A DNA stretch of 64,000 bases. It comes from Byssovorax sp. GTDB taxonomy: Bacteria > Myxococcota_A > Polyangia > Polyangiales > Polyangiaceae. A model generated the notes under the pieces. It was not told where the DNA came from. It did no database searches and saw only the letters and a program-made list of their open reading frames with translations. The stretch lies in contig JANYGI010000084.1 in NCBI GenBank assembly GCA_025362495.1, forward strand, positions 1 to 64,000, in the 5' to 3' direction. Numbering within the stretch: position 1 is the first letter of the stretch; each line of letters begins with the position of its first letter. A program made the translations under genes and the position numbers. Below are positions 47,568 to 51,714 of this stretch, one piece after another.

Positions 47568-48173
47568 ATGACTGCTCGTGCTCCGATCCAGGGACCCGCG
47601 ACGCTGGAAGATCTCCTCGCGATCCCCGAGGAAAAACGACGGCACGAGCTCATCGAGGGGTCTATCGAGGAGAAAGGCGCGACCACTGCCGAGCACGGCG
47701 ACGCCCAGCACTCGCTGTCCGCGTTCACTTTTGCCTTCAAGCACCGGCCGGGCGGCCGCTGGCCGGGGGGATGGTGGTTCGGGACCGAGGTTGAAGTCTA
47801 CTTCGATCCGGCGAATACCTTCCGCCCGGACGTGACGGGCTGGCGGCGAGATCGGGTAGCCGAGCGTCCGCGAGGTACTCCAGTCCTGATCCGGCCCGAC
47901 TGGGTGTGCGAGATCCTCTCGACCAACCGGCGCAACGATCTCGTGCGAAAGAAGCGCGTTTACCACCGCTTCGGCGTGCCCCACTACTGGATCATCGATC
48001 CTGCGGAGGAGACGTTGAGCGTCTTGCGATGGAGTCAGGATGGGTATGTGGAGATCCTGACGGCGGAGCGCAGCGAGACCGTTCGGGCCGAGCCCTTCGA
48101 GGCGATGCCGCTCCAGGTGGGGATCTTGTTCGGGGATGACGAGAAGGACGACGAGCCTGCGGCGGAGGGCTGA
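47568..48173 (+). CDS. Uma2-family (DUF820) nuclease-like protein
   Basis: This 201-residue protein is of the Uma2 family, which has a PD-(D/E)xK nuclease fold. Motifs are ELIEGSI with Glu, FRPDVTGW with the catalytic Asp, VCEILS with Glu and KKRVYHRFGVPHYWIIDP. Catalytic residues appear intact. The family is very abundant in cyanobacteria and myxobacteria, often in many copies, and its function is unproven. A perfect inverted repeat lies just upstream. Confidence 0.87.
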   Translation: MTARAPIQGPATLEDLLAIPEEKRRHELIEGSIEEKGATTAEHGDAQHSLSAFTFAFKHRPGGRWPGGWWFGTEVEVYFDPANTFRPDVTGWRRDRVAERPRGTPVLIRPDWVCEILSTNRRNDLVRKKRVYHRFGVPHYWIIDPAEETLSVLRWSQDGYVEILTAERSETVRAEPFEAMPLQVGILFGDDEKDDEPAAEG

Positions 48174-48195: not shown

Positions 48196-48942
48196 TCAAG
48201 CGCCGAGCAGCACCGACAGCGCGGTCGCGGCGGGCGTGGAGCGCAGCGCCCTCAGGCACGCATGGTTGTGCTCGTCCGCCTGGAGGAGCCTGGCTGCGAA
48301 CGATCCGGCATCAGGATGAAGCGCCGCGTTCCAGAGCCGGAATGCGCGCTTGTACCCGTGCGTCGGCACCAGCGCGCAAAGCAACGTGGTGGCGTCTCTT
48401 GCCCAGCGTGTGACCGGTTCGGACACGCCTGCTTGCAGGATTCCATCGATGAGCACGCGTTCGAGGCAGTGCTCGTCGGGGAGCCCCGCGAACCTTTCGA
48501 TCGAGCTGGAGCGCCAAGGTGCGGGCAGCAAGACGACTTCGCGACGATCCATCTTGAAGGCGCGAGCGCCTGCTGGATTGCGGTCGAGCGGTCCGACCTT
48601 ACCCTTGGCGCCCGTATGCTCGCCGAACGCCTTCTCGAAGAATGCAAACTCGCGGGCCGGCGCGTCTCGGTCGGGATCGAATGACACCAAGATCATGTCC
48701 GGGCGCCCGCCGGCGCCCGCCTGCGCAAGGTCGATCGCGTGCTGCGCCAACCCGCTCTTCCCATTGCGTGATTCAAGCTGGATCTCGAGGTCGCCGATCT
48801 CGAAGCGCTGAGCCCGTGACGCCCCAGCCTGTGCAGTGAGCTGGGGTTTCTTGCGACACCCGTCCTCCAACAAGAGAGCACGGATCGCCGCGAGATCATC
48901 AGGCCCCTCGCATACGATCGCCCGGAAGCGCTTTGCCGCCAT
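48196..48942 (-). CDS. TOPRIM-like (DUF3226/OLD-type) protein
   Basis: This 248-residue protein appears to hold an OLD-type TOPRIM core: Glu12 in AIVCEGPDDLAAI and an Asp cluster Asp89, Asp91 and Asp93 in LVSFDPDRDAP. These are the acidic residues that bind metal in TOPRIM nucleases. The C-terminal half is helical, without a recognised domain. ATG 48942 lies two bases after the ATPase gene stop, so the two are co-translated. Separate ATPase and TOPRIM subunits are found in PARIS (AriA/AriB) and other OLD-related defence systems; here it may be a DUF3226 variant. Nuclease activity is inferred. Confidence 0.72.
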   Translation of the reverse strand: MAAKRFRAIVCEGPDDLAAIRALLLEDGCRKKPQLTAQAGASRAQRFEIGDLEIQLESRNGKSGLAQHAIDLAQAGAGGRPDMILVSFDPDRDAPAREFAFFEKAFGEHTGAKGKVGPLDRNPAGARAFKMDRREVVLLPAPWRSSSIERFAGLPDEHCLERVLIDGILQAGVSEPVTRWARDATTLLCALVPTHGYKRAFRLWNAALHPDAGSFAARLLQADEHNHACLRALRSTPAATALSVLLGA

Positions 48943-48944
48943 AC

Positions 48945-49973
48945 TCAGAGCCTCACGTCGTGGCCGAACTCGAGGACTCGCCGTTTCGCGTCCGGTCCCT
49001 CGATCACCACCGGATCGAGGACACCCGCGTCCATGCGCAGGCCGATCACGGCCACCTTCTCGGGCTCGTTCTCGAACACCTGAAGCACAGTCGCGATGAA
49101 CTCCAGGCTGTGCGTGGCAAACACGACCTGCGTACCGTCGTGAACCACGAGGCGCATCAGCGAGGCGATCGCACCGAACATTCCGGGGTGAGCGAAGACC
49201 TCCGGCTCGTCGATGGCGGCGACTCCGCCCTTCGCGCGGGCGAACGCTCCCGCAAGGAGGAGCGCTCGCCGGAACCCATCGCCCGCGTAAGCGAGCGGAT
49301 AGCCAATCCGGGGTTTGCCCTCGAAGAGGTGCGGCTCGTCCCGGTCGCCCACGGCGATGCTTTCGATCGACGTAACGTTGGGGCGAAGCTCCTGGAGGTA
49401 CTTGAACCAATCGTCGTACCAGGAGCTCAGCTTGATTGCGCTCAATGCCGTTCGGAGTGCGCTGGAGAAGCGGCCGCCCTGAAATCGCGCAGTCGCTCCC
49501 GCGGGACGATCAACGAAGTTCCCTTGCAACGCGAAGGGGACCTGCCCCGGGACCGCGGGCGTGACAGCGAGCCAGGCCCCATCTTCGTCAATGTAACCGT
49601 CGAGCGGACCGGAGCTGGTTCCGCCCGGTTGCCCCCGTTGAACCGTGAGAATGCGCGGATCGGTCTGCGAGCGGCGAACACGCACGCCACGAGTCAGCGG
49701 CCCCACCGGCCCGTCGGAATCGAATGTCGCGTCCACCACGGCGCCGTTATCATCGAACCAGTACTTCATCCCCGCGAGCCCGAGCCATTCGCGCGATGCG
49801 AGCGCCTCGAATACGGCGTTGGGTGATGGCCCCGCGCATGCGACGCCCAGGGCTTCGAGAACCGTTGACTTCCCGCAGCCGTTGGCCCCCACGATCATCG
49901 TGAGGGGCGCGAGGCCGTCGATCTGCCCGTCACGGATCCCGCGCAGTCCCTGGATGCGAATGCTGGTGATCAT
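48945..49973 (-). CDS. AAA/ABC-type ATPase, OLD/RecF-like
   Basis: This 342-residue ATPase is of the AAA_15/AAA_21 type used by OLD, RecF and SMC-like proteins. Walker A is GANGCGKST (29-37), Walker B AAIDEPE (252-258) and the H-loop FATHS (His288). LAYAGDGFRRAL near 228-239 stands where the ABC signature is expected. The start SIRIQGLRGIRDGQI is typical of OLD-like ATPases. The coiled-coil insert is short. It is paired with the TOPRIM-like gene two bases downstream, which suggests an ATPase-sensor plus nuclease-effector module. Confidence 0.82.
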   Translation of the reverse strand: MITSIRIQGLRGIRDGQIDGLAPLTMIVGANGCGKSTVLEALGVACAGPSPNAVFEALASREWLGLAGMKYWFDDNGAVVDATFDSDGPVGPLTRGVRVRRSQTDPRILTVQRGQPGGTSSGPLDGYIDEDGAWLAVTPAVPGQVPFALQGNFVDRPAGATARFQGGRFSSALRTALSAIKLSSWYDDWFKYLQELRPNVTSIESIAVGDRDEPHLFEGKPRIGYPLAYAGDGFRRALLLAGAFARAKGGVAAIDEPEVFAHPGMFGAIASLMRLVVHDGTQVVFATHSLEFIATVLQVFENEPEKVAVIGLRMDAGVLDPVVIEGPDAKRRVLEFGHDVRL

Positions 49974-50068
49974 GATCCGCGCCGGTTTACTCCAATCTAC
50001 CGGCAGAAACTACCGCGGAGATGCCGCGGCTGAGGAACGCCGGTCGCTGACCTCCTCCGATCCTGGAT

Positions 50069-50311
50069 GCGGCCCGGTCGGCACCGCCCGCAGCTACTTG
50101 CGGCCCGGTCGGCACCGCCCCGCGACTACCTTCGGCCCGGTCGGCACCGCCCCGCGACTACCTGCGGCCCGGTCGGCGCCGCCCCGCGGCTACCTGCGGC
50201 CCGGTAGGCACCGCCCCGCGACTACCTTCGGCCCGGTAGGCACCGCCCCGCGGCTACCTGCGGCCCGGTCGGCACCGCCCCGCGGCTACCTGCGGCCCGG
50301 TCGGCACCGCC
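50069..50311. repeat. 32-bp tandem repeat array, 7 full units plus one partial
   Basis: Units start GCGGCCCGGTCGGCACCGCC and end CGCGGCTACCT or CGCGACTACCT. Starts are 50069 (31 bp), 50100, 50132, 50164, 50196, 50228 and 50260 (32 bp each), then a 20-bp partial unit at 50292-50311. Variation is limited to a few positions: G/T at the first base, C/A at the eleventh, and A/G near the end. Each unit contains CGGT-CGGC-ACCG, able to form a small hairpin. No spacers separate the units. Confidence 0.95.
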
Positions 50312-50380
50312 AGATCGGTGGACGCGGCGCCTCCGCCCGCCGACGCGCTGACGAGTCGAACTCGCTGCGACGGCCTTGCC

Positions 50381-50416
50381 GTGCTCAGACAAGGCGGGGA
50401 TCCCCGCCCTGAGCAC
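50381..50416. promoter_or_regulatory. Nested 36-bp palindrome
   Basis: GTGCTCAG (50381-50388) pairs with CTGAGCAC (50409-50416). Inside, GGCGGGGATCCCCGCC (50393-50408) is itself a perfect 16-bp palindrome; only ACAA at 50389-50392 is unpaired. The symmetry is too long for chance. It may be a protein-binding site or a cruciform-forming element between two divergent genes. Confidence 0.55.
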
Positions 50417-50667
50417 GCGACGCGTGCGATTTGGGCGGGGCGGGCCGCGCGGAGCCGCGAAGCGGCGAGCACGGACCGGGGGTGGGCATCAACTCTTCTT
50501 TTCTCTTCTGGTCCTCGAAGCCACGCAGCGGGGCCCGGGTCATCCCCTGGCTATCCTCGATAAGAGGGCAACTTGTAGCGCCGCGGAGCGAGAGCGCCGT
50601 CCTCTGGGTTCCTCTTGCATCGACGACCGTCGCGGTGCGAGAGTCCCCCCCAGGGGTAAATACTAGA

Positions 50668-51714
50668 ATGTCTAGCTTCAGAATCTTTCGTTCCAGTCTC
50701 GTCCTTGCTTCGATCGTCGCGCTCACCGCCGCTCTCACCGGCGGAGGCTGCGCGACCGCCAACAACCCGGTGGGAAGCGGCGGCGGCACCACCAGCGGTG
50801 GAGGCGCCGAGGCCCGCTGCACCGGTACGCCGCCGGCCTGCGCCGGGCTCGACGACTTCGATTGCCAGACGACCAACGGCTGCACCCACGTCGGTGCGTG
50901 CCAGGGCACGGCGCTCGACTGCGCCTCGCTCTCGGCCTCGGGGTGCGCCAAGCAACCTGGCTGCACCTCGATGACGACCAGCAGCTGCGCGGGCTCGGCC
51001 CAGCCCTGCTTCAACTTCAGCAACCCCTCGATCTGCACGCAGCAGAAGGGCTGCACCTGGGACCCGAACAACTTCTTCTGCAACGGCGTGCCGACGAGCT
51101 GCCAGCAGCTCTCCGGCCAGGCCTGCGCGTCGCAGCTCGGGTGCAACGCCGGCCAGGGCTCGAGCGCTTGCCTGGGCACCCCCGCCGCGTGCCCGACGTT
51201 CCTGGCCAAGGACGGCTGCGCCACGGAGATCGGGTGCGTCTGGGTCTCGCAGTGCGCGGGCGCGCCGACCGCCTGCGCGACGCTGAAGGACGCCGACTGC
51301 GCCTATCAGCCGGGCTGCTCCTGCGCCGATTGCGGGAGCACGTCGTCGAGCTCCACCGGCGGAGGCCCGGTGTGCCACGGCCAGAGTGACTGTAGCCCCG
51401 CCCAGGATGCCTGCCGGACGGGCGACTGCATCAACGGCGAGTGCACGCGCCTCCCGAATTGCCAGGCGTGCGTGAAGCAGGTGCAGTGCAATCCGCACCA
51501 GCAGGCGTGCTTCACCGGCAACTGCATCGACGGCATGTGCCAGGCGAAGCCGAGCTGCCAGGCCTGCTCCGCGCCGGCCGACTGCAACACCACCACCAGC
51601 AAGTGCTTCACCGGCAACTGCGTCGACCAGAGCTGCGAGGTGACGACGATGTGCACCAGCGGCGACGGCTGCTGCCCGCCGGGCTGCGCCGGCCTCGACA
51701 CCGACTGCAACTGA
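50668..51714 (+). CDS. Cys-rich repeat lipoprotein
   Basis: This lipoprotein of 348 residues has lipobox GGGC (Cys28) and a Gly/Ser/Thr linker. Residues about 50-240 hold repeats of the form C..C..L....C....GC, with Trp or Thr before the next Cys (for example CATEIGCVWVSQC). After a Ser-rich hinge come three repeats of the form C...CFTGNCIDGMCQ. Many disulfides and surface exposure are likely. No catalytic motif is seen. ATG 50668 was chosen because the signal peptide starts there; the ribosome site is weak. Confidence 0.78.
   Translation: MSSFRIFRSSLVLASIVALTAALTGGGCATANNPVGSGGGTTSGGGAEARCTGTPPACAGLDDFDCQTTNGCTHVGACQGTALDCASLSASGCAKQPGCTSMTTSSCAGSAQPCFNFSNPSICTQQKGCTWDPNNFFCNGVPTSCQQLSGQACASQLGCNAGQGSSACLGTPAACPTFLAKDGCATEIGCVWVSQCAGAPTACATLKDADCAYQPGCSCADCGSTSSSSTGGGPVCHGQSDCSPAQDACRTGDCINGECTRLPNCQACVKQVQCNPHQQACFTGNCIDGMCQAKPSCQACSAPADCNTTTSKCFTGNCVDQSCEVTTMCTSGDGCCPPGCAGLDTDCN

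Follow-up and report, generated by a model that had tools for sequence, protein, structure and literature searches.

What is the short tandem array that lies between two divergent genes of this Byssovorax sp. genome, and does it serve the genes beside it? The array spans positions 50068-50311, with no strand assigned, of the window, by which we mean the whole 64,000-nucleotide stretch of DNA that was analysed, and it sits in the 694 bp that separate an ATPase gene on the minus strand from a divergent lipoprotein-like gene on the plus strand. An earlier note had offered three readings of it, a variable-number repeat, a repeated protein-binding site or a structured RNA leader, and had placed it upstream of what was called an AAA-TOPRIM pair. 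On the evidence set out here, the array is most probably a tandem repeat of the ordinary sort and no working part of the neighbouring ATPase pair; of the three readings, the variable-number repeat is the best supported, if in part.

The architecture that had been described, seven full units and one partial unit of 32 bp, contiguous and with a period that is not a multiple of three, is borne out by both TRF and unit-by-unit alignment, save that the first unit has 31 bp. TRF reports a period of 32, 7.7 copies and 92% matches (score 411) at 50068-50311, and the consensus unit is CGGCCCGGTCGGCACCGCCCCGCGGCTACCTG. The units start at 50070, 50101, 50133, 50165, 50197, 50229, 50261 and 50293; units 2 to 7 have 32 bp each and unit 8 ends after 19 bp. 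Aligned across this array and a second one described below, the unit resolves into a 23-bp core, CGGCCCGGTCGGCACCGCCCCGC, and a 9-bp linker. The first core copy (50070-50092, plus strand), in the unit that is 1 bp short, is identical at 20 of 23 positions without gaps, and the last, partial unit (50293-50311, plus strand) holds the first 19 bp of the core, with unrelated sequence beyond. Such an array is far above chance: if three mismatches are allowed, the 19-bp core CGGCCCGGTCGGCACCGCC matches the window eight times, each time inside the array, where dinucleotide shuffles lead one to expect 0.39, and with lags of 20-60 bases the array has a self-similarity of 0.85, the rest of the window at most 0.56. 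Among tandem repeats with a period not divisible by three, it was the top-scoring one in the 0.83 Mb of the genome that was sampled. Tandem repeats of other kinds were also seen, one at 277-878 with a 114-bp period, a multiple of three, which is probably a Cys-rich coding repeat, and one elsewhere in the genome (L064, 27-136), with 2.6 copies of a 43-bp unit of unrelated sequence.

Interior units of the array differ at few sites, and its terminal units are degenerate or truncated. Similarity is greatest between units that lie three apart, which differ on average at 1.3 sites, compared with 2.0 for adjacent units and 2.5 for units two apart, a pattern which, on these few comparisons, fits a 96-bp duplication. 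The internal variation also bears on whether the array, or its copy number, was set by the assembler. The 10.8-Mb genome is split into 240 contigs, one of which ends in the second array, which suggests that arrays of this kind may break assembly; the window array, however, has unique sequence on both sides within a 150-kb contig, and the variants that distinguish its units follow an order, which is not what a simple copy loop would give. We regard an artefact, which had been named as grounds for dismissing the array, as very improbable, and take the array to be real, although in an assembly of 240 contigs its copy number may be wrong.

By pattern searches, by BLAST and by a two-unit sequence model alike, arrays of the unit occur at two loci in the genome, the window and contig C97, and the next best match of the model after these two arrays has E = 0.37. 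Weak matches by the starts of contigs C65 and C75 were inspected and hold no array. The search for other arrays, a check proposed with the original description, has been run and returned one further array, at C97:77704-77855 on the minus strand, beside unrelated genes. An unrelated open frame of 273 aa stops about 23 bp before this array, which is cut off by the contig end, the coordinates being those of the part on the contig. A genome-wide dispersed repeat was rejected on this count of two loci. Beyond this genome, searches of 107 further genomes of the family and of 182 further genomes of the order, none of them from the same genus, did not recover the unit. In the order one match alone fell under 1e-6, a collagen-like coding repeat of 27 bp (G048); this and a 39-bp lipoprotein-type repeat (G073) were rejected as homologous arrays, the best matches in relatives being coding repeats or due to chance. 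An exact-pattern scan of GTDB representative contigs and IMG/VR gave no match, and the unit was not found in plasmid and phage collections at the sensitivity used; these collection scans require an exact match, so that diverged arrays may escape, and records closest to this genome may be excluded. A literature search found no earlier description of the 32-bp unit.

The array could be a regulatory element of the adjacent pair, for example a phase-variable promoter spacer or an autoregulatory operator, and its position speaks for this: the gap to the ATPase start codon, ATG 49973, is 94 bp, close to the distance of about 100 bp given before. The ATPase (48945-49973, minus strand) is an AAA_21/AAA_15 protein of the OLD/AbiEii-like group that matches many defence ATPase models, none at the NCBIfam family cut-off. 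For its partner (48196-48942, minus strand) the label TOPRIM is plausible, but it is not confirmed by the Toprim match at Pfam E = 0.17, which lies under the curated cut-off. Adjoining the pair at 47568-48173 is a Uma2-family putative endonuclease that matches the candidate defence model PDC-S03. The array also lies upstream of the divergent gene at 50668, which was absent from the earlier note; its product, a Cys-rich lipoprotein-like protein (50668-51714, plus strand), has no Pfam or NCBIfam match and was not found among 58 relatives. Between the array and this gene, at 50380-50417, there is an imperfect 38-bp inverted repeat (CGTGCTCAG...GGCGGGGATCCCCGCC...CTGAGCACG) that has no other copy in the genome and is possibly an operator or terminator-like hairpin.

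Several results argue against an element that belongs to the pair. The second array adjoins unrelated genes, and upstream of two close ATPase relatives (51-53% identity) there is no tandem array, a comparison of small number (n=2) in which the two are independent, GTDB L143 being apparently the same genome as G022 (identical upstream sequence). A close relative of the ATPase was found in just one other genome of the family, and it is one of the two compared. A simple scan gave no promoter or terminator match, sigma-70-type promoters included. With a second array beside other genes and relatives that have none, it is best to regard the array and the pair as unconnected; the link drawn in the earlier note is not supported, and an element specific to the pair seems quite improbable. 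Within about 200 bp upstream of one ATPase relative (starting at 2501 in L144) there are two identical 37-bp copies of GGGCGACGACTCGATGGATACCGCAGCGTCTCTCTGG, about 40 bp apart and unrelated in sequence to the window unit.

A short CGGT/ACCG hairpin is possible in each window unit, as had been claimed, with one G-T wobble in unit 4 and no special stability, and it is this hairpin that could point to a structured RNA leader or a non-coding RNA. The array nevertheless folds worse than dinucleotide shuffles on both strands (z = +1.9 each), the hairpin has no compensatory changes, with no pair changed on both sides, and an Rfam search of the array gave no match up to E = 1. In some decayed or diverged units the dyad is disrupted, and what pairing there is can be accounted for by GC-rich composition. 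The suggestion of an RNA leader was not upheld by these results, and we give an RNA of either kind hardly any credence. A protein-coding repeat was likewise rejected on the period of 32 and on the lack of a codon-position GC bias, GC by codon position being 0.73/0.77/0.76 in the array frame against 0.70/0.48/0.79 and 0.52/0.66/0.92 in the neighbours; the array looks non-coding.

A working definition of the bacterial minisatellite asks for head-to-tail units of at least 20 bp, in two or more copies, with about 90% identity (PMC2884548), and the window array falls within it by the TRF values given above. We lean towards the view that the array is a genome-specific intergenic minisatellite of the VNTR type, amplified locally by slippage and unequal recombination, and rank this explanation first. 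It draws on the lack of structure and of a coding signature, on the different gene neighbours of the two loci (the ATPase pair and the lipoprotein-like gene in the window, unrelated genes on C97), and on the confinement of the unit to two loci of this genome, with none elsewhere among the genomes searched. A 32-bp unit would have been amplified and homogenised locally via replication slippage and unequal recombination, and amplified again at a second, unrelated site; the array would grow, shrink and homogenise while its edges decay, its copy number probably varying between strains, and it would be near-neutral, needing no function in the adjacent genes. Concerted evolution within each array would be expected to give the C97 array a linker version of its own and edge units that are decayed yet still in phase.

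One observation is poorly explained by a minisatellite, and it concerns these same edge units. The identical 23-bp core is common to both arrays whereas the linkers differ, the main ones being GGCTACCTG, GACTACCTG and GACTACCTT in the window array and AGGTACGCG in the C97 array. Moving away from the contig end, the C97 units keep the exact 32-bp phase, and units 3, 4 and 5 keep 23, 17 and 20 of the 23 core positions but match at 3, 2 and 0 of the 9 linker positions. Pooled, the core matches at 60/69 positions and the linker at 5/27 (Fisher p = 3e-10; block-contrast permutation 2/2000), in a test that is post hoc and compares units related by descent. The best core match at any of 63,698 background positions of the window is 17/23, a value seen five times, and the in-phase edge units on C97 are therefore real. 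Neutral decay should not spare a core, and the contrast counts against the minisatellite; a core spared at exact 32-bp steps hints at a protein-binding core.

The explanation ranked second, which we hold as tentative, is accordingly an iteron-like array in which a regulator, a nucleoid protein or a partition-type protein is predicted to bind the 23-bp core. The core holds a short dyad, CGGT-4-ACCG, and a step of 32 bp, about three helical turns, would place successive cores on one face of the DNA and favour cooperative binding; the putative binding might control the divergent promoters or organise the chromosome. Besides the shared core, it is in keeping with such a role that the window array both opens and closes with the core and that both arrays are intergenic, and there is a precedent in enhancer-binding proteins, those of Myxococcus among them, whose recognition sites are tandem repeats upstream of sigma-54 promoters (PMC7910581). 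The region holds 3 sigma-54-like sites where 1.5 are expected, however, which is not clearly above expectation, and a sigma-54 enhancer was rejected for want of a clear excess. The dyad is broken in decayed units, the array is not conserved in relatives, and a search of the genome gave no convincing solitary core sites between genes. The best 10 core matches outside the arrays and the 9 next-best model matches all fall within long open frames, most with a coding-type GC bias by a test that is crude in a GC-rich genome; the array itself falls in an open frame by the same test, which makes the evidence from solitary sites weak. To our knowledge there is no candidate binding protein for the core. 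The earlier suggestion of a repeated protein-binding site is a possible reading of these alignments, the core being spared and the linkers diverged in the second array. The fuller proposal, that both arrays are iteron-like putative sites of a lineage-specific DNA-binding protein, with the core and the 32-bp phasing selected and the linkers free, appears unlikely.

Were the array a minisatellite, its main value would be as a potential marker for typing strains and as a caution that arrays of this sort can interrupt assemblies; were the core a binding site, it would mark a DNA-binding system, so far undescribed, that is confined to one lineage. Comparison with known systems helps to place it. 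Like a CRISPR array, the C97 locus has conserved repeats parted by shorter variable stretches at a constant period, but linkers of about 9 bp are far too short for the unique spacers of about 25-40 bp that are required, they are nearly identical within the window array, and no cas gene was recognised beside the array; a CRISPR array was rejected. With REP, BIME and REPIN elements it shares short GC-rich intergenic repeats that are sometimes tandem, whereas here the unit forms no stable palindrome, there are two loci rather than many, and all units are in direct orientation within each array. Iteron arrays of plasmid origins and partition sites likewise have direct repeats, a core of about 20 bp and a spacing of near-integral helical turns; here no adjacent replication or partition gene was seen, and the two loci lie on long contigs of a 10.8-Mb genome, and no protein is known to bind them. 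With the VNTR loci used in MLVA typing the window array shares intergenic head-to-tail units that reach 20 bp or more in length and about 90% or more in identity, and a homogenised interior, the difference being that in the C97 array the core resists divergence more than the linker.
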